64,000 nt of DNA, taken from the NCBI RefSeq assembly GCF_004210375.1, contig NW_027467782.1, forward strand, positions 24,655,276 to 24,719,275. Direction: 5' to 3'. Origin of the DNA: Tachypleus tridentatus (lineage: Eukaryota > Arthropoda > Merostomata > Xiphosura > Limulidae). The translations under genes and the position numbers were made by a program. This document shows positions 4,556-36,869 of the stretch, piece after piece; within the stretch, counting starts at the first letter, position 1, and each line of letters begins with the position of its first letter. The notes beneath the pieces are model-generated. The model had not been told where the DNA came from. It ran no database searches and saw only the letters and a program-made list of their open reading frames with translations.

Positions 4556-5206
4556 AAGATACCTTTGGCATTTTTCTTTGTACAGAAATGACAGGTCGTG
4601 TGACGGACAAAGGCATGTTGGTCGATCAGCATGTGCCCACCCTGTCTTTGCCACTTAACACACCTTTTCAGTATTTGTTCTTATACTTATTTTGATGCAC
4701 CTGGTCAGTCTTTTACTGCTATTGGTTTCAGTCTGCTCTCCTTCACCATTTTCCCACTTTTGATGGAGGGTTGACATCAACCCATGAAATAGTGATAATT
4801 TTCCTATCATTTTGAGAGAGACTGGCTGTGGTCTGTGCCACCTGACCATCATGCCTGGTGGAAGCTGGATCAAGCCCACTGGTTATCTTTCACTGCTCTC
4901 ATGGAACTTGATCCTGCCATCGACAGCTGACTGGGTGGCAGAAGTAACTGACTGTAGCATATAGGCAGCTGTTCAATGTATTCCTAAGTCCTGGACATGT
5001 TTCCATGATATCCTCGTCCGTGGTGGAATCTTGCCTGCCATATGGCATAGAAGGCTCAAAAACTTCCTGGGATAACTTTTGTAGGTATCTCACACTCTCG
5101 AACCACATCACTTTCCAGCAGGCTCATGAACATGCTCGGCAGGTAAAACGTCAAAGCCAGAACGAATCTTGGATTAAATTTACAACCAGCATATCTTCTA
5201 GCACCA
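4556..5206 (+). pseudogene. RNase H-type LINE ORF2, endonuclease and linker fragment
   Basis: Broken + strand frames carry pieces of a LINE ORF2 N-terminal half. They include GRVTDKG and LVDQHVPTLSLPLN (endonuclease), then after an internal deletion a segment around WWKLDQAHWLSFTALMELDP, then YPRPWWN and FCRYLTLSNHITFQQAHEHA followed by QSQNESWIKFTTSISSST. The last two belong to the linker between endonuclease and reverse transcriptase. The sequence passes abruptly into Penelope-type sequence near 5207. The matching reverse transcriptase half resumes at about 6172, so this is probably the left part of one interrupted LINE. Stops and frameshifts are frequent. Confidence 0.72.
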
Positions 5207-6171
5207 TATATATAAGAGACATTAATTCCATTAAAAACCTAAAACTAGACAAAAACATAAAAATTATAAAAGCAGATAAAGGAAATGCTATAGTCATTAC
5301 AAACACCAATGAATACATCCAAAAATGAAGAACATCCTCTCAGACACCAACAAATTTAAACCAATACACACAAATCCAACAAAGACATACGAAACACAAC
5401 TAAACAAAATACTACTAAAAATGAAAAAAGCCAACGCAATTTTAAAAACTTTATTCCTACCTATGCAAGACCGACTCACGCATACCACAAATATATAACA
5501 TCCCAAACCTCATAAACCAGATTATCTATTACAACCAATAATGTCCACATATGAATCGTTTAATTACAATCTTTGTAAATACATAGCATGGGCATTCACC
5601 AAATATGTAACATCAGCCAGCTCATTCATCAAAGACTTTTAATTTTAAGTTTAATCTTAATCAACTTAATCATAAAGCCTTAATGGCCAGTTTCGATGTT
5701 ATATCCCTCTTACAGAAGTTCCAACCACTGAAGCCTGCAAGATAGCCTTAGAACTCTATATCCGAGACCCTAACCCAACTATAGACATTCCCAGCAACCA
5801 ATTAGCAACCGTCATAGAATTCACCACGATGAAGACAAACTTCGTGTTCAACAACCACAACTATATACAAACAAATGGCCTAAGCATGAGCAACCCAGTA
5901 TCACCAGTTCTAGCTAATATTTTTATGACACAAGTTGAAACACAAGCACTTAATACAGCATTACATCCATCATTATACTGGTACAGATATGTAGACGACA
6001 CAGTTGCGGGATTCACATCTATAGAACACACACTTAATTTTTTCAATCACATTAACTTTATACATCCCAACATTAATTTCACATGTGAACAGGAAGAAAG
6101 AAATCAAATATCATTTCTTAACCTCAGAATTATAAGAACTGATACACAATTTAAAACAGAAATACACCGAA
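5207..6171 (+). pseudogene. Penelope-like retroelement reverse transcriptase, partial
   Basis: The + strand encodes a Penelope-like (PLE) reverse transcriptase in broken frames. It begins with IKIIKADKGNAIVI..N.YIQK (5240-5330), the characteristic ADKGN block. SFDVISLL follows near 5690, then a 183-aa ORF from 5829. That ORF holds NGLSMSNPVSPVLANIFM and WYRYVDDTV, with the catalytic YVDD intact at 5988-5999, and then FTCEQEERNQISFLNL..I. The piece ends near EIHRK (about 6170), just where a family member would move into its C-terminal region. The GIY-YIG endonuclease is missing here. It sits between two parts of an RNase H-type LINE, which suggests insertion into that LINE. Confidence 0.85.
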
Positions 6172-8507
6172 AAATCTTGAGAAGGCTTATGATACTACGT
6201 GGAGGTATGGCATTTTGCAAGACCTACACTTATATGGGTTATATGGCCATTTGCCTATTTTTATTAACAATTTTTAATGGGCAGGCAATTCCAAGTTTGT
6301 GTGGGTTTGACACTTTCCTGTTCTTTCCTACAGGAACTTGGAGCCCCTCAGGGTATTGTTTTGAGTGTCAAACTTTTTAGTATTAATGCCATCACTGAAC
6401 AACTCCTTCGATGTCGACGACTTCCATATCTGATGTCAGTTGTTGAACCAGAGGTATATTGAGCAGCAGCTACAGACTGCCCTCAATTACTTACTAAAGT
6501 GAACCACACCAATTGGTTTTCACATCTCTCTTTATAAAAACCATTTGCATGCACTTTTTCTGCCAATGGGGTATTCTCCCTGATCCTGAACATCGTGTTG
6601 GCAAATTTGTGCTCCCGCGGTCCCTGAGACAAAGTTCTTGGGTCTTATCTCTGACCATAAGCTGACCTTTATATCACACATCAAGCAGCTAAAAGTCAAA
6701 TGTACAAGAGCACTGAACATACTCCATGTCTTCTTTTTCACCACTTGGGGAGTGGATCGATGTTCTATGCTAAAGATATATTGTGCTCTTACTTGATCAA
6801 AACTAGACTATGGGTCTCTGGTCTGTGACTCTGCCCAGGACCTTGGCCTTGTAGATGGTGGACCTCGTTCATCATCAGGAACTTTGGCTCTGCACTGGAG
6901 CTTTCTGCACTTTTCCAGTCCAGAGTTTGTACACAGAGTCTCATGAACCTCCTCTATACCTCTGCTGTTTGCAACTGTCTTTACTGTATGCTTCTAAACT
7001 TCAATCCTTACCACAGCATCCCACCTGGGGATGTGTTTTTCTTCCTCAGTGGGCTATGCTTTTTCAGAACAGATGATCAGCCATTGTTCCTTTTGTTTTT
7101 CGTATCCAGGTGCAGTTGGATGAATTGGGTGTGTCCTTGGATAAAATTCCTGTATCCACGGGTTAGCCCATTCCACCATGGATTATTACCATCCCAAAAT
7201 GTAACCATTCTCTAAATCATCTGAGAAAATTGGATACTACAGATTGGAAATAATGTCTTTTATTTGCTGAACATCTTTTGAACCACCCCTTCATTCCCAT
7301 TTATACAGATGGTTCAAAATCAGGTGACTGTGGGCTTTGCCATGGTTTGTTGTGGTTCAGTGGTTGCACACAGAATTCCCTCTACAGTTGCTCTGTTCAC
7401 TGACGAACTCTATGCCATTTCTCTTGCCCTGGATCACATAGAAGCTAAGCAGTACTCGAATTTTACTATTTATTCTGGCTGAATTAGTTCTCTGTGTGCT
7501 CATTTCTCTTTAACATCCACTTCTATCCAGTTCTTCTGGGTACCAGGTTACATTGTTGTTCGTGGGAATGAGCTTGCAGACACTGCAGCTAAATCTGTCT
7601 GCTCTGGTGCTATCACTGCTGTGCCTGTTTCATATCTAGACTGTGGTCTTGTATTCAATACTTGACTCTGTGCCAGTTGACAGCTGACTTGGAATGAGTA
7701 ATGTCAAAACAAGTTTTCCAGATAAAACCCTCTATTGGATTTTGGCCATCTTGTTTCCATAAGGATGGGAAAGAGGAAGTTGTACCAACTAATCTATGCA
7801 TTGGTCATAGTTTTTTAACTCATTGTTTTGTTTTGTTTTTGTCTGGGACTAATGCACCAATGTGTGGTCTGTGTGAAACTCAGGTCACAATAGGCAACAT
7901 TTTACTGTCATGCTACCATTACAACTCTCTATGATGGCACCATTTTAAACACATTTTGTCCCAAGATTTATCCCTAACATTAGACAGTGTCATTGATGAT
8001 GGTGACACTGTCCTCCTTACAAATGTTTTTTTAAAGGCCATTGGCCTTTTTAATGCTATTTAAGTTTTTTAATTCATAAACTAGATTTTTAACATGATTC
8101 TTTTTTATGAATTAAAGTAAAAGTAATTCATTACAAAATTAGAAAATGGCCATTACATCGAATAGCTTGAAACCAGGACTGGAGAGGCCAACTTCAGGTG
8201 ACTCATACTGACGTTTGAACTTACCTGTTAATCATCTTGGCATGTTACAATAATTAAAATTATGCTACAGAAAGCCTTTTAAAACTTGTATTGCTTTACT
8301 TTCTCTCTAATTGCTATTAACTAGATTTAAAAATTGGATTTAATGCTATTTAAGTTTTTAATTCAAAAATTAAGCTTTGTTTTGTTTTACCTTGATTCCT
8401 TTTTACAAATTTTAATGACATTACTTTACTTTTAATTTTTTTACCAGTTGTTTGGTGCAGATAGCCTAGTTACTTTGCACCATAAAATGCCAAACAACCA
8501 ACCAACC
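6172..8507 (+). pseudogene. RNase H-type LINE (I/Nimb-like), reverse transcriptase, RNase H and 3' end
   Basis: This is the 3' part of a non-LTR retrotransposon. Reverse transcriptase motifs are visible in shifting frames: LEKAYDTTWRYGILQDLH (about 6175-6230), LGAPQGIVLSVKLFSI (6330-6380), and a catalytic VDDF box near 6405-6425 with Asp where Tyr is usual. A thumb segment with CTGAF follows near 6895. An RNase H domain then shows YTDGSKSGDCG (7297-7330) and DELYAISLALDHIEA, but the third acidic position reads Gly-stop. FWVPGY..VRGNELADTAAKS follows near 7530-7590. The 3' end is gtgcagatagcctagttac and an (AACC)n-like tail at 8507. There are many stops, so it is inactive. RNase H places it outside classic Jockey. 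Confidence 0.82.
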
Positions 8508-9300
8508 TCTTCAGGTTATCTGTTCTCCATCCCTTGGCCCTGGCTCTTCCTACCTTCTGCCTGGTCTGACCATGTTGCTCACCTCCTTTCTAGACTTTAC
8601 CTTGGGCCATGGCCTTAACTAAGACACTCCTTGTTGTTTATTCTTGGTGGTATGGTATCCCTTAGCAGGTTTGACCTTGGTTCTTTGCTATCTGTCAACC
8701 AAACCCCTCTTCTCTGTGTCAGGGTTTTGGATATGCAAGTGTGGACTTGGATTCATCTATAATAGGTGCCTATAATTTGTTAGTGATAAATTTTAACATT
8801 AAATGGACAGCACACAACCCACTAAAATGATATATTAAAACAAGTCAAACATGAGTAAAAAAATTCTTAATAGGATATCACATTTGTATCTAAAATTCTA
8901 AATTTTCTTGTCAAAAATCCATACAGGTTGATTCAATTACTTTAGAATCCAACTGACAATAATATTTTATTTCCTCTATTCTATTTCTTACTATACAATC
9001 TGATATAAATTCACTCACACTACTTTGTGGATTACCACAGTCATATCTCAAAAGTTAAATAATTATTGACTTGTACAGAGTTGCATAATGAAATTTCTCA
9101 CAACTAATACTTAAAATAATCAATCTTTAACACTTCTGTCTTAAAAACTAAACAATCATTAAATATTAAATCACAAAATAAACTAAATAAAAATGCATCA
9201 GTCAGTCTTATATATCCAACACTCTGCCAATTATACACTATTACTTCTACTTATACCACCTCTATTCCAACATTGAATCTTGTTCTTTCACCTTTACATT
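8508..9300. other. no gene seen; C/T-rich block then AT-rich spacer
   Basis: A pyrimidine-rich block at about 8508-8760 has base composition unlike its surroundings and may be old transposon sequence, but I could not name it. The rest is plain AT-rich DNA. Confidence 0.35.
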
Positions 9301-9439
9301 TGATTTAGGGTAATCCTTTACCTGGTTAAGCCAGACTTTACCATCTGCTAATCTCTTCCTTATCTGCGCATCATTCCACCTAGCCCTTTTACCTGTGGGA
9401 GGTGGCTTTTTACATTAGTCAATCTTTCACCATTTTACT

Positions 9440-9970
9440 CGTTAGTTCTACCATCAAACACCTCCCTTCCATTTACCAGGATGTTCAATAGAATTTGCTG
9501 CCTCCGCCTTTGCCAATTATTGGATGGCACCTTCTTCATTTTGCCTGCTTGATACTGCAAAGTGTTTCCTCTTTTGTTCTCTCATCATGGTCAGATCCTT
9601 TTCTTGTCTATACATAAATTTGCCCGATTCCTGAGCCCACCTGGGATCTTGGTGTCATCCTATGTGCTCTTGTTCCTAACCATTCAAACCACTAGTAACT
9701 TGCAGCTTCAACCTTCTTTTCATCAGACATATTTTGTATGTAATTGCAGTTCTCTCTCTATGCTACTGACTTATCCTGTACCATTTATGTTGTCCTGTTA
9801 TTCTTTTTTCCCCTTTCCAGTACCTCCTGCCTCAGTCTTCAGCCACTTGGAGAGAAGATCTCCATCCTTCTTCTCTTCTCTCTCATCCTTCTGTTTCACT
9901 CTACTGTGTTTTTTTTCAAGCTCAGACAGACTTCTCTGTTCATACCATTTGTTGCCACTTAGTTCATAAC
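9440..9970 (+). pseudogene. possible tyrosine-recombinase retroelement relic
   Basis: In this C/T-rich stretch two neighbouring frames resemble parts of a tyrosine recombinase of DIRS/Ngaro/PAT-type retroelements. The first is EPTWDLGVILCALVP (about 9630-9680), like the WDL..VL.AL motif. It is followed after a frameshift by PFKPLVTCSF..L (about 9680-9720), like PFEPL..CS...L. A later FSSSDRLLCSYH piece (about 9905-9950) recalls an SSDRLF motif. No catalytic Arg/His/Tyr set can be laid out. The match is piecemeal, and a pyrimidine-rich stretch of another origin would also produce Leu/Ser/Phe-rich frames. Confidence 0.3.
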
Positions 9971-10154
9971 TATTGTTTTCTGGGGTTTTATCTTCAACCC
10001 TTCATTCTCTGAGATTTCACTTCCACAAAGGACATATCTCCTTCTGCCTTTATTGATTTGGTTTGACACATATTTTGTTTGGTTGTCTCCTTTTAAGAGT
10101 TTTTTGCTTCCAGATGGTTTACATTTCACCTCCGCTCTTGTTTTTTTCACTATT

Positions 10155-10253
10155 TTTCAACTGCTGCTGGACAATTTTATTCATGCTGTGACATGCAGAC
10201 TACCTCAAATACCTTCATTGCTCGTAAAATTTGGAAACCAGAGTGTAAAAAAG
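10155..10253 (+). pseudogene. ZC3H15-like locus, candidate upstream exon
   Basis: A reading frame with FIHAVT and then VKFGNQSVKK ends at 10253 directly before a splice donor (gtaggc). ZC3H15 has a corresponding basic stretch (FIKAVT.., VKFGQQ..) just before the charged segment matched by the next exon, and a phase-0 boundary would fit that exon's start. About ten residues between the two matching blocks have no counterpart. The 5' boundary is not resolved. The case rests mainly on position and on the VKFG block. Confidence 0.4.
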
Positions 10254-10456
10254 GTAGGCTTAAGTGTGAAGATTGGATATCAGGAGTGTAATAATGTATT
10301 GAGTGATCATAGGCAAATTTTTAGTTAGTAAAACAATTATTCCTACAAAACTGTGTATTCATACACCATGTAACTTTATGATATATATCTGTAAGTTCAT
10401 TATAATGTTATGAATTAATTTAAGAAGATAAAATGCATTTGGGAGTATACTTATAG

Positions 10457-10630
10457 ACCCGGCATAGCCAGGTGATTAATGCACTCGACTCGTAATTGTT
10501 GGTAAAAGAGTAGCCCAAGAGTTGGCAGTGGGTGGTTATGACTAGCTGCCTTCCCTCTAGTCCTACACTGCTAAATTAGGGATGGTTAGCATAGAAAGCC
10601 TTGGTGTGGCTTTCAAAACACACCAAACCA
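10457..10630 (+). repeat. tRNA-derived SINE, family A (internally deleted)
   Basis: It begins with the tRNA-like head (ggcatagccaggtgattaat, 'ctcgactcgtaat') and continues with the family body 'ttggtaaaagagtagcccaa' and 'gactagctgccttccctc'. The box-B part and the segment after it are missing between about 10498 and 10500, so this is a shortened copy. Confidence 0.75.
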
Positions 10631-12347
10631 GCATACTTATAAATAAACTTCATACTCAGGTAGATATATGGATGTGAAAGATGCCTTGTTGTAAACTACA
10701 TATGATGTTATGATATGAAAATGTTTAAATGTTTTCAAAGAAATTCATATTCTTCCATATTTACAAATATGTAGTGCTTGTGGCCATTATCAAGTGAGTA
10801 AGTATTTCTGTACCATATTTGAGGTAGGTGAGACACAGCATAAGTTTTTTTTCAAATAGGTCAAGTCAAGGCATGATTGGAGCTATGTCGGTAAGAAAGG
10901 AACCAAAATTATATACCATTGGAGCTTAAAATACAACAAATGCTGTTAAACTTTGTTTAACATAAATAAAATACCAGTTGAAACATAATAGTTATTATAT
11001 GTAACATCCTGCTGAAAGATGCCTTCAGTGTGTCTGATAGCACTCTAATTAATAGAAGACTTGAAATTAGCAGAAACCTAGGAGCCAAAGACTCCTGCAA
11101 ATGCAGGTGAGCCCATAAAAAGTGTTACCTAGGTAGCCCTGTGGCTTCTTGAAAGGATCTATTTTATGATATATTCTGAAATGATATAAAACTGTTATTG
11201 ACTTGTTTCTTAAAAAAAACACACATGCACTAACTAAACTTTTCAATTAGAGAGCCATTTCAACTAAAATTTTGTTAGGAACTTTCCCTAATGATGGTAA
11301 AGAATTAACCAACTCAAAATTAAATTGTGGAGAAGTTTTGCAGACAGAAGGACACTAGCCTTTTATCTGTATAGATAAAAATCCTAAGTGCTGTGAAATA
11401 AAATGGTTTGACTGGTGTTTTGTTTTTATAAAATAAGAGTTCACAGCAAAATTAAATGATATGTTGATATCTTTAATTTCTTTTTAAGTTACATGACAAC
11501 TACTGCTTTTTTTAGTGATTTTTCTGATAACATTCACTGTAGAGTACATTTCACAATGAACTATAGGATTGGCCCCCAAAAATGCATGTTTTGGGGCCCT
11601 GGCTAGCTCCATAAAAGAGGTTAAGCATGAGTCCTGTTAATATAATAAGTTAAGAAATGGGAAGCAATTAGTTGTGGTTAGCCATTGTACTTTTTCTTTG
11701 TCGTCACTTACATAAGAGTATCAGTCACAGCTAACACCAGTAGCAGTTGTAAATATCTATTGCAAATGAGAAGTTATTTATGTCATGCCAATATGTTATA
11801 TATGTATATATTATCTAAAGTACTGTTTCAGCACACCTTGAGAAAGAGGATTTGATGTTCTGCTTAAGGAATCTAGTTTTAATAATGAAAGTGTCTGTGT
11901 TTTGTTTTAATAACAATCATAATGATTCTTGACACAAACTTTTGCCACTCTTGGGTATTAGTTTAGAGTCTGTTAGGTATAACAAACCATTGAAGAATTA
12001 TTATATAATTATTAGTAGTAATTGAACTTAGTCATACATATAATTATTTTTGTGAATGTTTCCTTAGTTGGAGGAGTTTTCATATTTAGTGTGACCTTTG
12101 CCAACCTGGAATTCAGAATTTACAACCATGATAGTATGGCCTAAATTTCTCTAATTTTAATTTCTTGTTGACAGCCCACTTTTTTAACTAGTGACAGATT
12201 ATGTGTTCATGATATTATACATGGTTAATACTAGTAAGAGAAGAAAAATTTCACTGGGATAATTTCTCCAGTGGATAGTTTCATTTCTGCTGCTGTAAAC
12301 AGTTTGATTAGATTGTAAAGTTTATTTCATTGGTTATACATCACCAG

Positions 12348-12597
12348 GTGGTTAGGCCACTTGCAATATGAGGTTGTGGGTTCAAATCTCTATCCCACCA
12401 GACATACTTGCTCATTCAACTGTTGGAGCATTATAATGTGATGGTCATTCCCAATATTTGTTGGTAAAAAAGAGTAGCTCAAGAATTGTCAATGGGCAAT
12501 GATGACTAGCTGTCTTTTCTCTACTCTTTCACTGTTAAATTAGAGATGACAGCACAGATGGCCCTTGTGTAGCTTTGCACAAATTTCAAATCAAACT
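12348..12597 (+). repeat. tRNA-derived SINE, family A
   Basis: A full-length but diverged copy. It has the head 'ccaggtggttaggcc', box B 'gggttcaaatctc', 'gcattataatgtgatggtca', 'gttggtaaaaaagagtagc' and the 3' part 'tagctttgcacaaatttca'. Confidence 0.8.
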
Positions 12598-13371
12598 ATA
12601 AATTTGTAGTAATCAACTATGAGTCAAAGTATTAACTAAATGTTTTTTTGAGGTCACTTGCAAATTGAACTATAGGAATGTTCTGCTATTGAACATTATC
12701 TGTTCAATTATCCCACCCACCCACCCAAATAGATCAGTTGTATTTAATGTGGGTCTGGTAAAGGCAAATTCTGGGTGTTTGTATCTCATTTTACTGCTTT
12801 AATATCATGCTGAAAAGGTGTGGACGTCTTATAAACTTCACGAAGAAGACAGTGTATTAGCATTCAAAATATTACAGTATAACAAGGTATCCAAGGCTAC
12901 CTTAACTTTTACCACTGTGTGAAAATATAAACAAAAAATATTGCACTTTATACATAAACATGAGCCATGTAAAGCCAACAGTTTGGCCTTTTAACATGTT
13001 TTTTAACACTTTGTACTTTTGTAATTATCATCAACATTGTCTGTAGGAAAGTAGAAAGAAAAACAGTAGAGTATGAAGGGCTTTGTAAAATGATACTTCC
13101 ATGCAGCAATCTTATAAGTACCACATTAAAAGTCAAATTCATAAAGTGCAGTTTTCATCCCAACAGCTGTCACATTTTCTTTATTTTTAATGACCATGTA
13201 TTAGATAATGTTTTGAATGTTATAAAACTTTAATTATCTTTGTAATGCATAATTTGTTTACTTAATTGATGAAATAGTATGCCATGTTTATTAAAGTTAT
13301 TGATACAAAGGTTCAAACAAATTGTCAGTGGTAGAAGAGTAATCACACTCTACTCACATTACCTCAGGTAG

Positions 13372-13465
13372 ATCAACAAGCAGGAAGAAAAAGATGAGAA
13401 AAAGAGGGTAGTTGAGGATCTGAACTTGATATTCAAACCTTTAACAACACAGAAAGTTAAGAAAG
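13372..13465 (+). pseudogene. ZC3H15-like locus, exon (charged helix before first zinc finger)
   Basis: The frame reads INKQEEKDEKKRVVEDLN then LIFKPLTTQKVKKG, ending in phase 1 at a GT donor (13466). It lines up with the lysine-rich helix and the ELNELFKP segment that precede the first CCCH finger in ZC3H15. The acceptor is either the AG at 13370-13371 (in frame, chosen here) or the AG at 13366-13367, which would put a TAG or a frameshift at the exon start. It is about five codons shorter than the animal norm. The phase-1 junction joins exactly to the next exon, giving KKG followed by TDPKSV. Confidence 0.7.
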
Positions 13466-15188
13466 GTAAAATACAAATATATATATTATGAAATAGCTTT
13501 TTTCTGTCACCTTTCCTTCCTTGTGGAGAATGAAGTTAATGTTAGATAATTTGTGTATGGAGTAAAATGGTTTATTATTTTAATTTTACCTAATAGAAAT
13601 GCTAGATTAGACTAGCTTTCCTGTAAGTTATTTCTGTGTAATTTAATAGAGAGTGTGAGCAAGAAACTCTGGAATTTCTATATTCCCATTGTTGTATGAC
13701 TTTCCAGTAACATAACAAGTACGTGATATGTATCGCATGACAACTGGTTATACCAAAATAAAGCTGAGAACAATGTTTTGCCCTTCTTAGGTCATCTCCA
13801 AATTAACAAAGAAGGAGTTTGCAACAGTTATTCTGAGATACATTTTTACTTCAAGTTGGTTTTTTGCCATCACGAAATGCGTGATATATTGTTAATCACT
13901 TAACCACCCCAATACATGTTGATATGGCGTGTTTTTGTAAACATATAAATACAAAAATGTTTATTTTTTTCCATTATTGCTTTTGCTTGTTTTGAAATGG
14001 TTTAAATGAGCAGGAGAATATGGCAATGTGAGGTTTAATAGTACTAAAAAACATAGGATTTTATAGTTAACTGAAGACTTTTAAGAATTATTACAGAAGT
14101 GTTATTAATACAGATTATCTTTGGATATGTTAATGAGCTGGCTGTCTAAGTAGGTCATGAAGGTTTTTAAGATTTTATTTCTGAGAAATAGCAAATATCA
14201 ACATAAGTTGAATCTTTCAAACTGAGTTACTCAGGAAAAGGTTAAAATACCTTCCAGAATTATTATAATTTTTATACCTTATGTATTATATAGAAACTGA
14301 AATACATCATGATGTATTCTACCATATTAATATTACTCTTGATATACAGTCTTAAATGTGTTTAAAGAAGGAACCTCTTTGCTTTCTACTTTTAGAGATA
14401 CAATTCCTTGACATTGAAATCCTGACATAAGTAAGTAATTTTTTAGTATTAGTATTTTTTTTACATATATAAATATAAAAGAATTTCTGAAGTACAGAAT
14501 ATCAGGTTTACAATTTCACCCACTTAAGGTTCTAAATATTTATTTTTCAGTATTTTTTTTAAGGTCTGGCACTAAAATTGTACTAATGTATAACTTGTAA
14601 TTATAAATATTTATTCTTTATCAGTGAGAGTTAAATATTTTCTTTAAGAGTGGTCGGAAAGAAATACAGTTCTATTACATATGAGTTATGTAGTTATAAC
14701 ACTCAGCAGAGACATAAATCAGGTAGATAATCATTGACTTTATAAGTACAATGAAATTTTTTACATAGCTAAAAGTCATTCAAAACAAAAGTGTAAGCTA
14801 TTATATTACTGTAGCTTTATTGAATGTTATTTTTATACATTTAAAAATGTATAATGGTAAATTTTATCTGTTTTTATAACTTAAAAATTAAAACAACTTA
14901 TGTAACAAGTGTGTGGTGCGTGTATTGTGAACATATTAACTGAAAGCATGAATTCTTGTACTGTACATAACCATCTTTAATATTATATTAGTTTTCATAT
15001 TTTTTGTGATTTTTTCTATAGTTAGGTCATTGATATTCTTAGGGTGAATCAAAACAAGTGTTCAAAGTCTGCTTTATGTAAATCACACACCACAGCATTG
15101 AAGTGTTTTGTCTTGTTAGTCTCAACATGGCTACAGTTCAGTTATATTCATCTCTTGCAAAAAGGTGATATAACTATTTTAATTTCAG
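13466..15188. other. intron of the ZC3H15-like locus
   Basis: AT-rich DNA bounded by a GT donor at 13466 and a TTTCAG acceptor ending at 15188. I see no repeat or exon inside. Confidence 0.5.
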
Positions 15189-15326
15189 GAACTGATCCTA
15201 AATCTGTACTGTATGTTTTTTATAAGTAAGGACAGTGTAAGAAAGGTGACAAATGCAAGTTTTCCCACGATGATGTTGAAAGTAAGAGTGAAAAGAAGAG
15301 TTTTTACGTAGACTTGCAAAATGAAA
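15189..15326 (+). pseudogene. ZC3H15-like locus, exon with first CCCH zinc finger (disrupted)
   Basis: After a good acceptor (aatttcag) the frame reads TDPKSVLYVFYK, a stop, then GQCKKGDKCKFSHDD and a KKSFYVDL segment. It ends in phase 1 before GTAATG. ZC3H15 has DPKSV-x-C-AFFKQ-GQC-x-KGDKCKFSH here, a CCCH finger that supports its role as the DRG1-stabilising partner DFRP1. Two lesions fall in the finger. The first zinc-binding Cys is Tyr (TAT at 15212-15214), and the conserved Gln codon is TAA (15227-15229), a single C-to-T change. The other two Cys and the His remain. With normal splicing the product would stop before the finger, so this looks like a pseudogene exon. Confidence 0.85.
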
Positions 15327-18300
15327 GTAATGTAGTTTATCTTTTTATCTATGCATCTATTACCTACTAAAAATGTAAAGTATAAAGGTCTTTTAAATCA
15401 ACTTTATGGTTTTCTGTGTTTGCATTATTAGTGCTAAACTACTGAAGTGTTTTAAGAGTTTAAAAGCAATCTTCTGTTGTACCTTTTATAAAATTAATGT
15501 AGATAAATCTAATTCTGTTAAGGATTCATATCTTTCTTTTCAATTATAAAAAAATTAAATTCTATATTTTTTGGTCAAGATGAATTTCTATCTAATAAAT
15601 AATTTGGATTTCAGTCAGTTATTTATTGCATACTGCACATGATAAACCAGAATAAACATATGATATCATAGAAGAATATTCCTGCAGCTTTCAAATAGTG
15701 AGAAATATTTTCAGAAATAAAACCAAAACAACAAAAGACACAATAAAAATTCCTGTCCTCAGTATTTTTCTTATTTTCCCTGAGCTTTACATTAAGATCA
15801 TTGAGAGCTCTGGGTATCTAATATGTTGACAAACCAAATTACTGCTGCAGTAATATATGATCAGTGTATTGACTTTAGAAATTCACATTATAGCTGAACA
15901 TACTAGTGGTAAGATTTCCCAGGAATTTAGTTCAACTTTATATGCAGAGAAGGTACAGGCTTTAATTCTCAGGAAATTAGATTGATGGGTTTGGCCAGTG
16001 ATTTCTTTTTCTTTTCAGTAAAACAATCCATAGACCACACTCCACTGATTCTACAAGATACAGCAGAGAAAGGTTTCCTAATGACAGTGGGGGAAATCCA
16101 TTCTTACCTCCTCCCAATAACCCATTCATTTGGGGTAGTTTTCTTCTTTCCAACCTCATTTGGGCCTGGCCTTTTCCTTTTCAGGTTTGGAGCAAGCAGT
16201 TCACATGTTCTTCACCTCACATTTCATGCAGTTAAATGTGTTTTATCTTTGTGGGGATGTGAACTATGGATCAAACTTGTGTGCATTCACTTTAGTGGGA
16301 ACTGTGAGATCAGTGAAACTTCTCACCTGTACACACTGCCTGCATCCATAAACTAGTAACAACATTTACTAGTTCATGTCTTACCTTGCATATTGTATGT
16401 TATAAAATGTTTTTCATTTTAACTTGAATTTTCTTCATTAGTAAAACTTGTGATTTCTTTGCTAATGTGATATTAACATGCATCTGCTTACAGAAGAACT
16501 GAGCCATTTAACCAATATAATTATTTACATAGGAGCAGTGATTACATCAATTAGTGTACCATAAAACAATTTATATCATAAAAAATAATTAACCAATCAA
16601 AATTAGTCTTTGTCATAATTACTTTAGCAATCAATCAAAATTATGAAATTATTGTTTCCAGTTATTCCAAATTTCCAAATGATCAAAATATTTGTTAAGT
16701 TCAAACTTACATAAGAGGCAGGTGTGGGGATGCTTTATGACTTCCATTGCCATTAAATTTACGATTTCTGTCATTGTTATTGCAAAGCTACAGATGCTAT
16801 CTGCCACTGCACCAATTTTGAACTGTTGATTGTCAACTCTCTGGCTATTTAAATAATTAGGTGTAAATTTATTGTATTTTGATTTTTTTTCTCAACACTG
16901 TGTAATGTTTTTACATTACAATTGTATCACTATTATTTAAGGTTGTATAAGCATGAGCAGATCAAAGCTAGGAACCCAAGTGGTCCAGTCATTCATATTT
17001 TTAGTAGTTAATAACTTTATTCTTCAGTTTTGTATAAGAGAATGCAAGTGAAGTGAAGGGATCCATTGGGGTAAACTTTATACACATTTTTCAGAGATTA
17101 ATAATTATGTTGTTTAATATTATATTTGAATAGGCATGAATTTAAGGTAGAGATCAAGGGAGTTGAAACCCCATCCCTTCTAGCTCTTCCTTTTTAAAAA
17201 GTAATACCTGTGTCATTTAATGTTTTTTATAAATAGGTTCATATCTGTGGGGTCTTAACTCCTCCCTCTCCTTTTCCCCCCTTAATTTGATATTGAAAAC
17301 AGTGAATAGTATTGAAAATAAATATTAGGTTTCAATATCTGTTTGATAGGTCTATTAATTACCTTTATTATTATTTATTTGAATTTAGTTTATTTTGAAT
17401 CTATAACAGTCAGGTGTAGCTTCAGCCATTAACTTATGAATACAATAATATGAACATCAACTGAATGTTTCCCTGGTAAATTATCAGGCCTTGGCTTTTT
17501 TCCAGAAATTAACAGTGTGCATGCATTCTAGACTTTATGGAGATTTGTTTTCATTAAAGTTAGCATTATTTTTCAGAATTTATAATGTATAATGGAGGGG
17601 TTTAGACATTTTCATTGTTGGTTGGTTAGCTTGGCATTTTATGGCACAAAGCAACTAGGCTATCTGCACCAGACATTTTGGTTTTTGGTAATGAAGTTAG
17701 AAAAAATTTACCTTTTTTCTCTAAATGATAATAAAAAACTTTATTTCAACAAAAATTTTGAAATAACTATTTATGGTTATTATTTCTTACATAATTTGTA
17801 ACCCTTATATTTATGACACCTGTAGCTCTTATAACATATGCCTAATTTAAAATCTGTTTTTCATTGTTTGAATGTTATAATGCTATTGACAAAAATGTTT
17901 TAGTACTGTTGATATCCAAAATAAGTAAAAATGCAAGTGACAAAAAAGAATTGAAAACAGACTGATGTTTGGAAACACTAAAATGTGAATATAGGTGTAG
18001 ACATGGTTTTCCTTTCAAAATATAATAATTTATTTCAATTAAAGTTTAAAATGTTTGTTTTTATTTTCCAATTGATCACATTAGTAGAAATAAAGATATA
18101 GATTTTAAATTGTTCATTACAACCTATATGAACTAATAATAATAGACTTTCTAATTAATTTTATCACTAATGACTTGTAACACAGGTATAAATAATAAAA
18201 ACAATGAATGTGATGTACACTTATTAATTAAACTACTAGAAGTCCAATTAGACCCCTCTTCATAAAAGAAATAGAGAAACTATTCTTGCTATGATAACAA

Positions 18301-19294
18301 TTGTTGAGAAAGTTTAAATATGCTTGGATATAGCACATAGACTATCATGTGTTGATAAAGTTAAAATATAGGTTGTTTTTTATAGCTTTGTAAAATTTCT
18401 TTTGTTGTGAATTCTGAATGTATTTGTGTATAAAATTATATTTTAAAGCTATAGAAATTTTCTTCAAAGAGAAAGTATATGATAACTTTACATAAGGTAA
18501 GTAAGCTTATACAGTTTAAAGATGGGTTGAACTGATAACAAATCTTATTAAAAGTTTAACATGATAATGAATGTATAGTGTTTGGAAAAAGTTTTGTCAT
18601 CATCAGGTTTAATAATATACTTATACACTGAAATATATATTGTATGCAACAAAGAGATTGCTTAAAGCATAATAAAGTTATTTTGTTGATACTTTGTTTA
18701 TAATTACTGTTTTTACTTTTTAATAGACACATTATGATTTTATTAAGTTGCAGTGTTTGCAAACATATTTTTTAATATGTTCACCAAATAAAAAACTGTC
18801 ATCAAATTGTACAAGTTTACTATTTAGTGAATATGGTAGAAAATTGCAAGATATTGTGATGGTGCAAATATTTATTAAATAATGTTCTAGTGTGTTTATT
18901 TTGTTCAAATAATGAAGATAAATAAATTGTTTAACTAAAAATGGCAACTGTTAAAGAGATAAAGGCTATCATGTGAAATTAAGGGTAATTTGAAAATTAG
19001 TGAAAAAAAAAACCCAGAGTGAAAGAAAAAATTAAAAATGATACTACGTTAGAATAATGCAGAGGTTGAAAAAGTTAAGGAATAAGCATGTGCCTTTTTT
19101 TTTGTATGGTTTGTAAAAGGTGTGGAACTAATGGGTTGAGTGCAATTGACCAGTTCAAGGAATCAGTTATTACTTTCCACAAAATAGGGTACACAATTAT
19201 TATCTAATGAGATTAATAGGGATTTAGTAACAAAGAAGGGAAGAGGAACATTATTTAATGTTGTCCTTTGTATAATTTTTGCTTCTTTGACAAG
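15327..19294. other. intron of the ZC3H15-like locus; one LINE tail
   Basis: Mostly AT-rich DNA. A LINE 3' tail lies at about 17615 (listed separately). A 375-base open stretch at 15982-16356, following a pyrimidine tract and AG, encodes a Phe/Leu-rich sequence that I do not recognise and do not call as an exon. Confidence 0.45.
17615..17715 (-). mobile_element. 3' tail of the RNase H-type LINE
   Basis: Read on the minus strand, this matches the 3' end of the LINE ending at 8507: gtgcagatagcctagttgc, then a 'gccataaaatgcca' block and an AACC-rich tail. It is only about 100 bp long, as expected for an extremely 5'-truncated retrotransposition. Confidence 0.7.
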
Positions 19295-19404
19295 TACTCT
19301 CAACTGGTGGTTCTCAAATGGAAAATTGGGATGAAGCTAAATTAAAAGAAGTCGTTAAAAAGAAACATGGGAAAGATGATAAGAAAAATTCCCCCACTAA
19401 TATA
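19295..19404 (+). pseudogene. ZC3H15-like locus, exon between the two zinc fingers
   Basis: An acceptor at 19293-19294 (cttctttgacaag) opens an exon containing MENWDEAKLKEVVKKKHG and then KDDKKNSPTNI. It ends in phase 0 before a strong donor (gtaagt). ZC3H15 has the same MDNWDE..L..VV.KKHG block between its zinc fingers. Phase 2 at the start pairs with the phase-1 end of the previous exon, and the phase-0 end matches the next. This exon is open and the match is clear. Confidence 0.85.
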
Positions 19405-20535
19405 GTAAGTTCAAATACGTGTTACTCTACAGGAAATCAAGATTTTCTAACTTGTTTACTGTGCCACTTGGATGGAAAGTACCTAAGTTATACAAGACTG
19501 TTGTTTTTAAGCATTAAACACACAGAAATTACATTTTTTTCCATTTAAAAATTTTAACAGCCCCTTAAATAAACTTGACAGTCAGACATGTATAGATCAT
19601 ATATAAATTTGTAACTGTAAAAGGTGATATATTTGGTTTGTTCTCTCAAAACATATAAGTGATGTTACACTTAACATGTGGTGAAACTTGTGGTTACCAT
19701 GAAACACATTCATCTATTTAAAAAGACAATGATACTGACACTCATAATGTATAAATATTAAAAACAGACTTATTTGTGAGCTTTCTGATATTTTAGTAAT
19801 TAAACTTTCTACATTCCAGTTGGTAACAAAACATTTTGTTGTATCCTAAATTTAATACCTGTTCATTTTAATAACCTGACTGTATTCAAGAAGTATTATC
19901 TTCAAGATTGACTTACTAAAAAAGTATCTTATCATGAAAGACTACTAACCATTATGGTATTATTTTTGAAATAGAAATCATGTAACCCAAGCACTTTTGA
20001 AATGTTGACTTTTCTTCTTCAGGGGCAAAATGAGTGTGGTGGTATAGTCAAAGAGTGATATATATTTGGTTTTCCAGGAAACATTTATTTTTCTATGAAC
20101 TATTGTAAGCGTTTTATTTCTGGTACAATGTAGCCTTTGGCAAGAATGTATGTGAAAAGGTGTTATGGATATTTTGGTTTAGAAATATGTGTATATATAA
20201 AATTATGCTTAGGTATTTAAGTAAAATAAATATGACACCTGGAGACTGACTGATAAAAATATACTAATCAGTTTAAGTATGAAAAATTATGTTAAAAAAT
20301 AGTAAGTTTTAGGAAATTTGACCTTCATAAAACTAATTAATGAATAAAGTTATTTTTGATGAAACCAATGAATGTAGATCACTGATTCCAGGATCTGTGT
20401 TAATTACAAAAGGTTTAACAGTATTTAGATGAGCAATCCTAAGTAATACTAAACTTTCAAATAGAATTTCCCTTATTATTACCTATCAGTTTAAACTCAA
20501 ACATTTCATGGATTTTGAAGAAACATTTTTATCTT
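19405..20535. other. intronic AT-rich DNA
   Basis: First part of the intron between the third and fourth well-supported ZC3H15-like exons. I see no element in it. Confidence 0.45.
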
Positions 20536-20965
20536 CTACAGCTCAATCATTGTCATAAACAGATATTTCCTGAAGTTCTTGTTGCTTCCTTCTAAAAAAA
20601 CAGAACTCTAAAAGGTATCCTTGTTCAAACAAAAGTGAATAACATCCTACTCAAAAATGATTGTCGTCCATGCACTAAAGCCTTTTGTCAAACCTGCAAG
20701 TTCATAAAAACCACTAACTCATTTTGTGACATACACAAACAAAGAAACTTTGTTTAAAAAAAACACCATTTTTATTACACAGTGTAAACAAATGCAGTCA
20801 TCAATATGTAGGACATAACCTTTAGAGAACATTTCAACAACCATAAATCTTCTATTAACACTGAAAATGATCTCCCAGTTGCTCAACACTTTTACCAACC
20901 CACTTGGGTTATAGGATTTTCCATTTCATTTCTATCAAGACTTCTTAAATCTCTGTGTTTTTCTC
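20536..20965 (+). pseudogene. Penelope-like element C-terminal region (zinc linker and GIY-YIG part)
   Basis: Broken + frames give RTLKGILVQTKV, then CRPCTKAFCQTCKFI, a C-x2-C-x4-C-x2-C linker, then TFREHFNNHKSSIN and LPVAQHFYQP. In Penelope-like retroelements the reverse transcriptase is followed by such a cysteine linker and a GIY-YIG endonuclease containing the R..FNNH.S.I motif and PVA.HF. The GIY-YIG opening itself (about 20740-20820) is eroded. It sits inside a ZC3H15-like intron. No reverse transcriptase part precedes it, so it is a 5'-truncated copy. Confidence 0.75.
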
Positions 20966-22700
20966 TCATGAATGATATGTTTAAAATGCTTTAAGTTTCT
21001 CAATGACCAACTATTAGAGCTGTAAGAATGAATGTTGCTTTCTTGTTGCTTTGATTCTGAATTTTTACTATATGATATATATAGTAAATATATATATGAT
21101 AAAAACTTATTTTAATTTTTTTGAGTGATAATATAATCATTTTTAAACAATCCACTTAACTCTGCATACAATAGTAATTCTTGTGTACCTACTCTTGAGT
21201 TTTTGCTCATGCTACTAACCTTGAACTATTTCCCACCTAAATCACATGTTTTGACATGAATTGCACTAGTACATAACGTGGTCATCATGTAGTAATATCC
21301 CTCCACCAGTAAGAAGGTGATACATCCTCCATGCTCATGGGTCCCCACAAGAACTTACACTTGAAATTATCTTTGTTCTTAATTTAGGCACATTCATTTT
21401 TTAATTTTGAAAGATTTTGTGCAATCTTTGTGATTCCTTTATTAATATTTATTATCAAGTTACTATCTTTTTGATAATATCTTATGACTTTCATGAAATT
21501 TATAATTGTTTCTTTTCATGGTTTCTGTGCAAGTGAGATCTGTTTGTGTGTGACACCCTTTTCTCTGTCATTTACATTCCCCAGTCTTCTGTACATGACT
21601 TATGTCTTGCTCCACTCATTTGCCACGAGGTCTTCAAGATGCTTTTCTTTCCTTGGAGTCTTGGGTGGAAGTTTCTTGCCATCATTTTATCACGTCTTTA
21701 CTCTATCATCGTTACCATTCCTTGACCCATGTACACTTGTTATTTCATAATTTCTTCTTCTCACTTTCTCTGCCTCCTCTGACCATACTCTCCTCCCAGG
21801 GGGTTATCCTTTGTCTATTCTACTGGTAGCTACCTATAACCTTTGAACCTAGTTGACATGGTTCCTGTTGAATTGCTTTTTTTTTTTTTTCTTTTCTACT
21901 CACTTCATAACTGATCTTTGCATCACTTTGGTTTCTGCCCTTTGTCTATCGTCTCTTCCTCCTATTCTTCTTTCCCTGTTGTTTTTCTTCTATTTTCTGA
22001 TCCTTAGCACCATTGTCTCAATGACACAATGTCAGAGAACCTTCTATGCTTCTTTACACATTTATCTAATATCTGTTTGAAACCTTAACCACTTGTTCTT
22101 TCACCTTTACATGAAGCCTCTTTCCTTCTTCCTTAGGCTTACGGTCATCAGGTTTCTAATATTTATGCCTTATATGCCTCCTGTACTCTGCTTCACAAAT
22201 CTTGCTCCATTTTTTTTCCCTTACTGCTCTTTCTTTTTGTATGTATAAGCAGCTTGGACAGGTGGTGGGTCATTTTTTTCTGATTCTCTTCCATTATTTT
22301 CAGCTCATTACGATGTCTTTTATACCCAATTCAAGCAATCTAGTTTTGCACTGCTCTCTTTCAGGATGCATATACCTATTCTTGCTTTATGATTCCTCCT
22401 TATTCATGGATCATGAGTCAACTATTCTTAGCAGGTGGGTTCAGGTCTTATCTGGGTTATTTGTTTTTCCAAGAAGATGACATTCTCAAATTCTATTATT
22501 TCACTTCTCATTAGATTTGTACTTTGATTCACTCTGATGTCACTGTTTTGAAAACCATTGGATTGAATCTTACAGATGACATGCACGCCTTCAGTATCTG
22601 GCATTTATCTTCAAACAGATATATCATCCCTCCAAGTGCTATTTTTCAACCTACTTGCCAATCTTAATGGGGTAAGCACCTAATTTATATCTTTATACAC
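20966..22700. other. C/T-rich block of unknown origin, within the intron
   Basis: From about 21480 to 22640 the + strand is markedly pyrimidine-rich and gives several overlapping Phe/Leu/Ser-rich open stretches of 60-90 codons. The composition resembles the possible recombinase relic near 9.6 kb, but no motif is convincing. I treat it as unclassified, probably old mobile-element DNA, and not as genes. Confidence 0.35.
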
Positions 22701-23259
22701 TTATCTCCAGAACCCATTCAGTGGCTACTATACTTGTTTTCCAAATCCACATAATGATAGAGGTAAAGGAAAGCCCATCCAACCTGATTTTTATGTAACT
22801 ACTGTTGAGATGGTGTTTTCCTGCAAGACCAGTATGGTTGTATATGCGTGCATGTGTGTATCCATTCCAAAACACATCTTTCATGTAATATCATGTAAAA
22901 TGCCAGCATCAGGGGAGTATCTGCCTAATTTACTGACTCATGCATGCCAGGTTTTCAAAATAGGTTTCTCCTGTATTTTTGCAATGATCAAGATAAATGG
23001 GGCTCAGGGAACCTTTCCAAAGTGTACCCAGTGTGACCACCCCAGAATGTATTTGAGTGAAATTCTGGACAGTTCCTCTCTGTTGGTGTGATCTTTTTAG
23101 AAAAAGTCCAAGCAGGCAGTGTAGTGCAGTGCAATGGGAAATAAGGGAGGGATATCCATGTCAGTGTAGCATAGGCCACCCACAGTTATATAGTATGACA
23201 ACTTTTCAGTTGTTTTGACCAGCCAAATGGGGCAAAAGTGTTCTTGTTGGGAGTCAGTC

Positions 23260-23304
<45 letters not shown>

Positions 23305-23813
23305 GGTGAGTAACTTGTACATATAAATCATATGGCCTGATTATTGCACTAGTTACACTACACCTCGTGTCCACCTGACTTGTTAAGTGCTGATAGTTCG
23401 ACTGGTCACATATTTTACCTGACTTAATTTTGCTTTCCTTCTTTCATACATCTACCCAAGCAAAGAGTATACTGTCTCTTCTAATAATCTCTTACTATGA
23501 AATATCCTGTTTCATGAGCTTTTTGCCTCTTGATGCCTTTTCTGAAGTACTGTGTGAAGAGAGATAAGTGGGTTATTTTGGAAGTTAACATTTTCCTTAC
23601 TTGTAAATGTATTTTAGTTTTCTTATTTTTATTCCATTTCCTAAAGTTAAGGAATATGTGAAATACATGGCACAGTAAATTTATAACTTGAGAACAAGCT
23701 CTGTTGACCACAATATTTTTCTTTCCTTGTGAAAGATTTGAATCTGATGTGGATATCTTTGAAAGTTTGAACTTTAACTAATATTATATTGTTGGCTTTT
23801 CATATCCTTGTAG
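22701..23813. other. intronic DNA with a TG/TA microsatellite
   Basis: No exon or element is recognised apart from the microsatellite at about 23259-23304. The stretch ends at the acceptor TAG at 23811-23813. Confidence 0.4.
23259..23304. repeat. (TG)n(TA)n microsatellite
   Basis: A run of TG dinucleotides passes directly into a run of TA/AT dinucleotides, about 46 bp together. Any reading frame over it is an artefact. Confidence 0.9.
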
Positions 23814-23999
23814 ATTTGTAAATATTTTTTGGAGGCACTTGAGAATAATAAGTATAGTTGGTTCTGGGATTGCCCTAATGGAGGAGACAAGTGTCATTAC
23901 CAACATACACTCCCACCATGTTTTGTTCTTAATAAAGACAAAAAGAAGAACCAAGAAAAGAAAGATGACATTTCCATTGAAGAACTTGTAGAGAAAGAG
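23814..23999 (+). pseudogene. ZC3H15-like locus, exon with second CCCH zinc finger
   Basis: A 62-codon open exon lies between an acceptor (ccttgtag) and a donor (gtttgt). It reads [18 protein letters not shown] then [17 protein letters not shown], followed by an acidic/lysine-rich stretch and [12 protein letters not shown]. This is the second CCCH finger of ZC3H15 (C-x-F-LEA-ENNKY-WFW-CP-GGD-C-Y-H-LPP) and the start of the DFRP region. All zinc ligands (C, C, C, H) are kept. Splicing from the previous exon in phase 0 gives TNI followed by ICK, as in the family. I could not find the following exon (LESFLAWK-type segment) in the next several kilobases, so the locus appears to lack its C-terminal half. 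Confidence 0.88.
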
Positions 24000-26900
24000 G
24001 TTTGTTCAAGCATTGTAAAACTGATTTATATTTCACTCAGATCTCATCTTTAAAATAACCAAAAGTTTAAAGATAATAATTCAGTGAGATAGCTAACTGT
24101 AAAACTGGAGTGTTTATGTTCACAGCTATTTACTGTAGATTATGTATGAAAGCAAATATTTAAAAAAAAACTTCCATGGATTGACATCATCACAATACTA
24201 TGGAACTCTGGATGTGTATCTTATTGAAGGAACTGTTTGTACAAAATGTATTGTTTATTATTATTGTACTACAGTGATAAATTAACAAAATGTACTTCAT
24301 ATACCACCTCAAGGATTGGTTAGATTTTATAATTGTTGTGAGAAAAAAGTTGTCTTTAAAATGTAAAAGAATTAGGAGACGCCTTCTCCAGTTCCTTGAG
24401 AACTAATGAAAAGAAATATTTTTTTACAGAACCAGTATATTAAGAAGAATTAAGAATAAATGTTTCTAAATTTCTCAAAATATCTTTTCATAATTAATAG
24501 CCTTTCTGAAAACTGCACTGTGAATATTATTTTGTCTCATTTTTAAGATAATTTTTTAAACTTGTATTTTAATTTTAACACATTAGTGACACTCTGCAGC
24601 CTAAATAATGATTAATCCATTTTTTATAAAAACTAAATAATTTTACATCAGTTTGAAACTGCAATTACATTTCTTTATAGGACTGTGATATAAAATCCAT
24701 TGGTTCATTAAATAAATTTCTCCACTTTGACTAACTGTAAAATGAGTTAGAGAATGAGATATTACTGTTATTTACCAAATGAGAATGCATCATGATGCAA
24801 TAGTTGATACCTGTTATTTTAAGATGCTCCAAAGCTTCTCTTTTGTACTTTTTTTAATGTAAGTATTAACAAATAATTCTGAAAAAGTCGAAAATTTATC
24901 TGGCTATAGGTCTAACCACATATGGCTTGAATTAAGTCATGTTAAATTTCAAGAGCAAAATTAAATCATTGAATTAAAAAGAATATATAAAATAAACTTG
25001 TAGTTATTCTTCTACACTTTTAAAAATACATCAGAATTGAAATGTATTCAATAAAGTTTATTATGAGACATTACTATTAAGGTAAATAATGCCATATGTT
25101 TCCAGCAATATTCTTTATAAACTATATATTTTACTGTTACAACATTATTAGGAGCTATCAGTATTTTATAAATTCACCAATCTATTTGAAACTGGATTAG
25201 TGAACTAGTAGGATGTTTAATAGCTTCTGAAAAATCTCACGTTAGAAATCTGAAGTTCAATTCCACGTGGTGAACATATCAGCTATCCCACTGCAGCTCT
25301 GCTCTATGATAGCCAAGCTTCTGAAAAACTATAATAGCAAAGTGTTAAGCTAATGAAGATACATTCTAGAGATATAAAGCATTATCTTATTTGTCTTAAT
25401 GGAACTAGTTTAGTATTTAATGCCTATTTGGGCCAGGTGTTGGTTTAGTGTTATTTTTTTATCATGATATCCTCTTGAAACATACAAGTGAAAGGATCTT
25501 TTGTGTTGGAAGTGTAAAGTTTTTAGTGGATAATTCTGACACTTTGACATAAGCAATTAGATTATTCTGTACTACCCTGTCCAGAAATATTGCACTAAAC
25601 TGGTGATGTAAGTAAATATTTTAGATGTAACTTTTAAACATGGAGAATGAACTAATGTATCAACAAAAGCCAAAGCATGGGTTTTATGTACAATAGCTGG
25701 AACTCCTCCTCCTAAGGCATGAAGTTATAACCATTTATTTATATATGGTGTAGTTTCAGTACTTAATTTTTAGTTTCTGAGAATATTAAGGTTTAAACTA
25801 AGTGATAAGTGTTTTAACCAAATATGAATACATTAATTTATTGATGATTATTGTTGTAAACTTACTTTCTATTAGTGTGTGTGTATGTAATGTAAATTTA
25901 TGGGTATGTCGGGTTAATGATTCTTCGACAATAAATCTCTAACTTGTTGGTGATAAATGTGACAATAAATGAACAGTATGCACTCCTTGTCTTTGTAATA
26001 ATGTGTGTGTATATATATATTCAGAAAAAGTTAAATTTATGTATAATATTCTTTGTCCTATGGAGATCATAGTTGCATCTTAAACATTATACGTTTCTCT
26101 CTTTCTAGTCAAAAGTTCACTTTGGCCAATTCAATTGCTCTAGAATTCAGCTGGCAAGCCATTTATTTTTCTTTATTTTAATCACAATACTGTCCACTAA
26201 ACATAACAGTGTTGTGTCACCTGCCATTTTCAGGCACCCAAGTGGCGCAGCAGAATGTTTGCAGACTTAGTTAGAAACCTTATTTTGATACCTGTGGTCA
26301 GCAGAGAACTGTCTAGCATTGTGCTAAATTACAAACAACTAAACAAATGTATAAACACAGAAACAAACCACTGTCAGATGGGAGAGGTAGAACTAAGGTG
26401 TGTCACAGAAGAGTGGGAGGCTTTTCCATCACGTTGTGTGGATGTGTTGAAGTGAGTATGAGGTTATTTTCATTTTTTACCATAAGCTCACATTTCTCTC
26501 TAATGTAGAATGGATGAGCACAGTAGTTTCAACTATTATTTATTGTTTAACAAAAGCAAAGTCCTAAACTTGTATTTGAATTGCGTGGGTGTTTTGTTGG
26601 AGATTGAGGTGGAAAGTAGATGTTTTTAGCATTTGTCTCTTGGACAAGGTTTTGATTCCAAAGATTTTATGGCTCCTGTTGATTTAAACACACTTTTCAT
26701 ATAAAATAGGTATTACATTTATGTACTGATAAATATGAAAAAAATTATATTCAAATACTTAAGATATAGTAATCATATTAACACACACAAACCACACTTA
26801 TACTTTAGATTTAGAAATCTTTGTTTAGTGTGACACAACACAAAATATAAAGTTTATTCATTACATTTCTAATTATTTTCTAGTTTGTTAAATAAATATA

Positions 26901-36804: not shown

Positions 36805-36869
36805 CTTGTTTTACTAGTCCTGATAAGGACTAAGGGTTAACCTTTTTGAGTAAAACTTGGGAGTTATGC

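Follow-up and report, generated by a model that had tools for sequence, protein, structure and literature searches.

A truncated ZC3H15 pseudogene of the horseshoe crab Tachypleus tridentatus and its intron-bearing relatives across the genome

The stretch of DNA analyzed here, called the window, comprises 64,000 nucleotides of contig C19 of the horseshoe crab Tachypleus tridentatus (positions 24655276-24719275; genome of 2.17 Gb in 205 contigs) and holds, in order on its plus strand, remnants of the gene ZC3H15, also named DFRP1 (Tma46 in yeast). A sequence-only reading had described there five exon pieces in order over 13.8 kb and took them for an intron-bearing, decaying duplicate left by whole-genome duplication. 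Using tblastn with a human ZC3H15 protein sequence as query, we matched four of these five pieces, with E values from 2e-25 to 1e-3, and the order held for them, whereas the first piece reached E 33 only. The longest, piece five, which corresponds to exon 6, also matched yeast Tma46 (PDB 7rr5_T, E 8.5e-20) in a search independent of the human query. A search of viral contigs found no relatives.

A genome search revealed a ZC3H15 gene on contig C9 (121455001-121495000, minus strand; C9 positions are hereafter given in reverse-complement coordinates), in which we found ten exons with plausible splice signals and whose spliced protein matches the Pfam families DFRP_C (2.5e-22) and zf-CCCH (1.4e-7), as members of ZC3H15/DFRP1 do. 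This locus appears to be an intact gene, in the sense that its identified exons show no lesion, and under a gene model that may miss one exon between exons 9 and 10; an apparently intact locus, as had been expected, thus exists elsewhere in the genome. A chain of blastn matches aligns the window with the C9 gene, introns included, from about 4560, inside intron 1, to 26196, inside intron 6: the ZC3H15 pieces are real, but the homology is larger than the 13.8 kb first proposed. The collinear blocks are 83-90% identical, apart from one of 77.5%, and some stretches between them do not align (e.g., 4870-6799 and 16022-17426). Neither exon 1 nor exons 7-10 were found in the window by tblastn with the human query, in agreement with the earlier remark that recognizable N- and C-terminal exons are lacking. 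The parts of the window copy are as follows.

4557..26196, plus strand: whole ZC3H15-derived segment, from the blastn chain to C9
4557..12586, plus strand: part common to a copy on contig C8 (97.95% identity); on its 5' side the C8 copy reaches into exon 1, and it terminates in a repeat like a short interspersed nuclear element (SINE)
10155..10223, plus strand: intron-1 sequence, taken for an exon in the sequence-only reading; matches C9 intron 1, 957 bp from the exon-2 part
10224..10259, plus strand: exon 2 remnant (3' part), its acceptor and the part encoding DKTFGLKNKKG deleted; the junction is also seen at one C8 and four C6 places
12361..12586, plus strand: SINE-like repeat inside intron 2, presumably tRNA-derived; the C8 copy stops here
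13368..13465, plus strand: exon 3 remnant, +1 nt frameshift relative to C9
15189..15326, plus strand: exon 4 remnant, with the first CCCH zinc finger; TAA, Cys-to-Tyr change and 3-nt deletion
19318..19404, plus strand: exon 5 remnant; C9 22357-22734 is replaced by 6 nt at 19312-19317
23814..23999, plus strand: exon 6 remnant, with a second CCCH-like motif and an open frame
26197..26360, plus strand: flank of the 3' breakpoint, SINE-like by eye only; C9 homology ends at 26196

Judged by its alignment to C9, the window copy is a real pseudogene, truncated and more broken than first described. A 957-bp deletion begins in intron 1 and ends midway through exon 2, fusing the two, and 10155-10223, proposed as the first exon, is intron-1 sequence instead; since the real exon in C9 reads FIQQVQHQ, the likeness of the proposed exon start, FIHAVT, looks like chance. 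The same deletion junction recurs at one place on C8, with 99% identity, and at four places on C6, with 94-95%. Relative to C9, exon 3 carries a +1 nt frameshift, and exon 4 has a TAA stop at 15227-15229, a TGT to TAT change at 15212-15214 that replaces a Cys ligand by Tyr, and an additional 3-nt deletion. In exon 5, the acceptor and the first codons (C9 22357-22734) are gone, with six bases in their place. The nonsense change and the lost zinc ligand had been recognized correctly, as had an intron-bearing decaying copy that is not a retrocopy, since the introns are collinear with those of C9 and lesions are present. The splice sites and mutually compatible phases did not hold up, because exon 3 has gained one nucleotide and exon 5 has lost its acceptor and first codons. 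In terms of a functional ZC3H15/DFRP1, a gene type with a CCCH finger and a DFRP_C domain, what we found in the window is a stop, a frameshift, a lost Cys, a lost acceptor and no exon 1 or exons 7-10; lacking both ends, the window copy cannot encode the protein.

The Kimura two-parameter (K2P) divergence between the window and C9 is 0.106 over 17,380 non-exon sites, and lies between 0.094 and 0.103 in exons 3, 4 and 5; these three exons diverge at nearly the intron rate and therefore show no visible constraint. Values are lower for the exon 2 remnant (0.059, 36 sites) and for exon 6, whose frame is open (0.033, six changes in 186 sites), giving 0.073 for all window exons together. A further locus, on contig C7, matches exon 6 (84% identity to the window piece) and exon 2 (85% at the DNA level), and nothing aligns to C9 within 1.5 kb on either side of C7 exon 6. 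Between C7 and C9, exon 6 has a synonymous divergence (dS) of 1.06 and a nonsynonymous divergence (dN) of 0.047, on 33.5 synonymous sites only, which is as would be predicted for an old, constrained paralog; C7, with two exons matched, is an older paralog of C9. The non-exon divergence between window and C9 is about one tenth of this dS. Given that the introns are collinear with those of C9 and that their divergence is 0.106, the window copy arose long after C7 and C9 separated. PMC7815833 dates a genome duplication of horseshoe crabs to about 135 million years; if C7 and C9 are its duplication pair, scaling 0.106 against 1.06 would date the window/C9 split to about 13 million years, a figure in which both premises are assumed and dS comes from one exon.

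The window copy has many relatives. A protein search of the genome with exon 6 of the window, which scored 30 candidates, gave 27 matching rows. We examined 20 exon-6 loci, 18 of which, the window among them, are neither C9 nor C7. C9-like intron flanks are present at all 18, and 11 of the 18 have a stop within exon 6. Further stretches of C9 recur likewise, namely the upstream region with exon 1, exons 3-4, intron 5, and exons 7-10 with the 3' flank. In total, gene-region queries gave at least 107 places including the C9 and C7 gene loci, so at least 105 others; 104 of the 107 come from a first tally, and the search on the 3' side contributed three more. A probe across the 3' junction described below adds at least 11 places, and an upstream probe of 204 bp, which was taken from one of the C6 copies and had 187 first-look candidates, at least 18. 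This amounts to at least 136 places on 17 contigs (134 without the two gene loci), 29 of which were matched solely by the junction probe (11) or the upstream probe (18). These counts are lower bounds because only the best candidates were scored; places were merged within 30 kb for the first gene-region tally and within 40 kb for the later ones, and two C10 matches of 59-61 bp as well as extra rows at loci already counted were left out.

Two stretches of the C9 gene, 610-1016 and 20825-20944, are absent from many dispersed copies, in which 609 joins 1017 and 20824 joins 20945 (610-1016 has matches of 92-97% on C6); as so many copies lack them, the source gene may have gained them later by insertion. 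Groups of near-identical copies lie at C4:122.31-122.49, C19:40.77-41.22, C19:43.79 and C1:179.59 Mb. The C4 and C19 groups are 95-100% alike around exon 6, and C4, C19 and C1 share flank beyond the 61-bp tail described below; they are probably recent large duplications between contigs. At C6:45510001-45540000, weak matches every ~667 bp along part of the stretch suggest a satellite array adjoining the C6 copy.

Among the scored matches, copies appear crowded on C19, the contig of the window, which measures 69.8 Mb and makes up 3.2% of the genome. Of best-scored candidates, C19 holds 43 of the 102 non-gene places in the first gene-region tally (3.3 expected) and 60 of 134 in the full tally (4.3 expected), as well as 28 of 40 rows in the upstream-probe search and 21 of 40 in the intron-5 search; its share is weaker elsewhere, with 9 of 40 junction-probe rows and 4 of 24 places on the 3' side. 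Many C19 matches have identical scores, which suggests that the spread on this contig is recent. In a tree of 19 sequences of ~3 kb (C9 and the 18 exon-6 loci; 2,646 columns), backbone branches are mostly short (0.002-0.012), many tips measure 0.03-0.06, and the stem to C9 is 0.091, a pattern that is like a burst without amounting to proof of one.

The structure of the copies points to a unit larger than the part kept in the window. At five of nine places compared from a selection of rows (C4:58.05, C6:123.9, C13:142.7, C13:144.4 and C2:43.5), a single collinear stretch of 12-21 kb contains both exon 1 and exon 10 but lacks parts of what lies between them. The 5' internal junction, C9 4519 to 15876, is the same at all three places read (C4, C1 and C19), and the 3' internal junction, C9 26068 to 31337, at both places read (C4 and C1). 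C9 15876 lies just past the counterpart of the SINE-like repeat in intron 2 of the window. We rejected 15876 and 26068 as ends of the unit, both being internal deletion junctions; that these junctions are shared implies that deletion derivatives multiplied in turn. Toward the 5' side, copies begin at least ~2 kb before the ATG, and matches to a probe from the adjoining upstream sequence are widespread as well.

At the 3' side, homology to the gene stops at C9 38078-38080 in 16 of 24 non-C9 places, ~615 bp past the stop codon and overlapping an AATAAA at 38077. The one junction read, at C4:122.33, has no poly(A) and runs into a 61-bp tail that is foreign to the gene. Using a 90-bp probe across this junction, we found the junction with its tail at 40 scored places of 62 candidates. 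In 35 of the 40, matching ends at probe base 77 or 78, after the 61 non-gene bases, and five places that are 98-100% like the probe continue to base 90. Within the C9 stretch, the tail has weak AT-rich matches only, the best of which (E 2.7e-4, 71% over 59 bp) lies elsewhere in the gene. Going by these alignments, a shared tail after which homology ends looks like the end of a mobile unit.

Based on these data, we propose, with a probability of roughly 0.63, that the ZC3H15 sequence of the window is a truncated and non-functional copy of a dispersed whole-gene DNA unit, which spread from a copy of the C9 gene joined to the mobile-unit-like 61-bp tail. The unit would carry the host gene complete with introns, the region upstream of it and its 3' flank, and would have arisen when a C9 gene copy was joined, ~615 bp past the stop codon, to the 61-bp sequence that resembles the 3' end of a mobile unit. 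Copying at the DNA level would have taken the unit to roughly a hundred places or more; derivatives with internal deletions would have spread in turn, mostly on C19. The window copy would then have lost both ends, keeping the part from within intron 1 to within intron 6, and would have acquired its deletion, frameshift, stop, lost zinc ligand and lost acceptor. Three points are inferred and not observed: the tail as a true terminus, a transposon as the vehicle, and the C9 lineage as the source.

Several observations weigh against this proposal. We found no 5' end of the unit, as copies extend beyond the C9 stretch examined, and a common start at base 3 of an upstream query was discarded as an artefact, the query having been cut at a SINE border. 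The tail could lie inside a longer block that is absent from the C4/C19/C1 group, the flank having been read at C4 only. It ends in ATCAA and not in the CTRR of Helitrons, and folding it as DNA with shuffles gave no significant hairpin (z -0.91). Among ten scanned open reading frames (ORFs) of the window, there was no transposase, Rep/helicase or integrase, only reverse-transcriptase fragments and a CENP-B/Tc5 piece. The tree has long branches (0.253, 0.233, 0.159 and 0.047) and weak backbone supports; the counts and the share of C19 are subject to sampling bias, being drawn from the best candidates alone. Finally, a C6 pair that is 98% identical over 23.7 kb, another C6 pair ~98% identical over an 8.7-kb overlap, and the C4/C19/C1 group are plain segmental duplicates.

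The last point leads to serial segmental duplication without any transposon, in which blocks of the C9 region, or of a single early copy, were copied around the genome by ectopic recombination between SINEs or other repeats and recopied on C19. In keeping with it, some breaks fall at SINE-like repeats (the end of the C8 copy, the flank at C1:81.1), breakpoints inside the gene vary among some copies, the one C6 pair is 98% alike over 23.7 kb, the C4 and C19 exon-6 copies are 95-100% alike, and the flank beyond the shared tail was read in the C4 copy alone. It fits less well with the number of places (over a hundred, on 17 contigs), with the mostly short backbone branches, with one 3' stop in 16 of 24 places and with the same tail in 40 scored places; we regard this explanation as possible, yet on balance unlikely. 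Retroposition of unspliced ZC3H15 RNA by a long interspersed nuclear element (LINE) would explain why the copies share a 3' end close to a polyadenylation signal, since C9 38080 overlaps the AATAAA at 38077, and intron 1 holds fragments that are LINE-like by eye. It is nevertheless improbable, because no poly(A) is seen at the junction read, which runs into a tail common to 40 scored places, and because copies reach ~2 kb upstream of the ATG, with matches to the adjoining upstream probe widespread too. A processed pseudogene was rejected on the retained introns and on the lack of poly(A) at that C4 junction. We also rejected a Helitron: a stem looked possible under RNA parameters, but the DNA fold (z -0.91) and the lack of a CTRR end speak against it, provided that the tail is the true end.

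The decaying whole-genome-duplication duplicate of the sequence-only reading has in its favor the retained introns and the apparently intact partner. It shares the idea that one of two duplicates decays with the decay of duplicates after genome duplication in horseshoe crabs (PMC7815833, PMC7210998). Unlike those cases, the window copy is high-copy and about 10 times less diverged than C7 and C9 are from each other: its introns align with C9, its non-exon divergence is 0.106 against a C7-C9 exon-6 dS of 1.06, about a hundred or more sister places exist, and C7 fits the role of the older duplicate. We consider this origin very improbable; being only 0.106 from C9 and having so many sister places, the window copy cannot serve as a dated example of duplicate loss. 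That a functional ZC3H15 gene is merely obscured by assembly errors would suit the open frame of exon 6, with 6 of 186 sites differing from C9, but is scarcely credible in view of lesions of several kinds, of the failure to find exon 1 and exons 7-10, of exons 3-5 diverging at the intron rate, and of an exon-2 deletion common to five other places.

A far bolder version of the dispersed-unit proposal is a long shot: that a large, so far undescribed animal transposon captured the complete ZC3H15, a host translation-factor gene, from its upstream region to its 3' flank (at least 38 kb in C9 coordinates), carried it to more than 100 places and recently invaded the 70-Mb C19 most, C19 then being non-recombining and possibly sex-limited. 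To see a sex chromosome in C19 is speculation. According to Shingate et al. 2020 (PMC7210998), sex-chromosome information on horseshoe crabs is lacking.

Compared with known systems, the proposed ZC3H15 unit resembles gene capture by transposons (Helitrons and Pack-type elements) in that intron-bearing DNA of a host gene was multiplied, deleted forms were multiplied in turn, and an apparent end is shared on one side. Helitrons have a 3' CTRR end preceded by a hairpin. The ZC3H15 unit differs in comprising an entire gene region (at least 38 kb in C9 coordinates) instead of fragments, and in showing no CTRR and no significant hairpin, with neither a 5' end nor an enzyme found. It is also comparable to the amplification of EPSPS in glyphosate-resistant Amaranthus palmeri, where an intron-bearing gene was dispersed genome-wide in tens to about a hundred copies and where the introns were argued to speak against a retrotransposon mechanism (PMC5240378). 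Amplified EPSPS is functional and confers resistance, in contrast to the ZC3H15 copies examined, which are broken and ~10% diverged. Among the papers listed for ZC3H15 with pseudogenes, none of which concerned ZC3H15, and for horseshoe-crab sex chromosomes in the open-licence literature, we found no report of such a dispersal.

Other features of the window include a transposase-like ORF piece at 4025-4477 on the plus strand (HTH_Tnp_Tc5 5.8e-7, CENP-B_N 2.2e-4) and RVT_1 fragments at 5676-6377 (plus), 33633-34220 (minus) and 32929-33417 (minus), only the last of which passes Pfam's cut-off. Upstream of both minus-strand fragments, a 422-aa ORF at 35545-36810 (minus) has no Pfam match; it ends in CCHC-like knuckles and resembles LINE ORF1 by eye. 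ARAGORN found no tRNA genes in the window.

These results indicate that, even where the genome may have doubled, a pseudogene that keeps its introns is not necessarily a relic of the doubling, and that introns alone do not separate duplicates retained from whole-genome duplication (ohnologs) from dispersal at the DNA level. If a transposon was the vehicle, it moved the gene with its upstream region and introns, at least 38 kb in C9 coordinates, a cargo that, to our knowledge, would be unusually large for an animal transposon. Copies of this kind can introduce errors into gene annotation and into counts of ohnologs, and the crowding of the ZC3H15 copies on C19, suggestive only, offers a lead on the nature of this chromosome.

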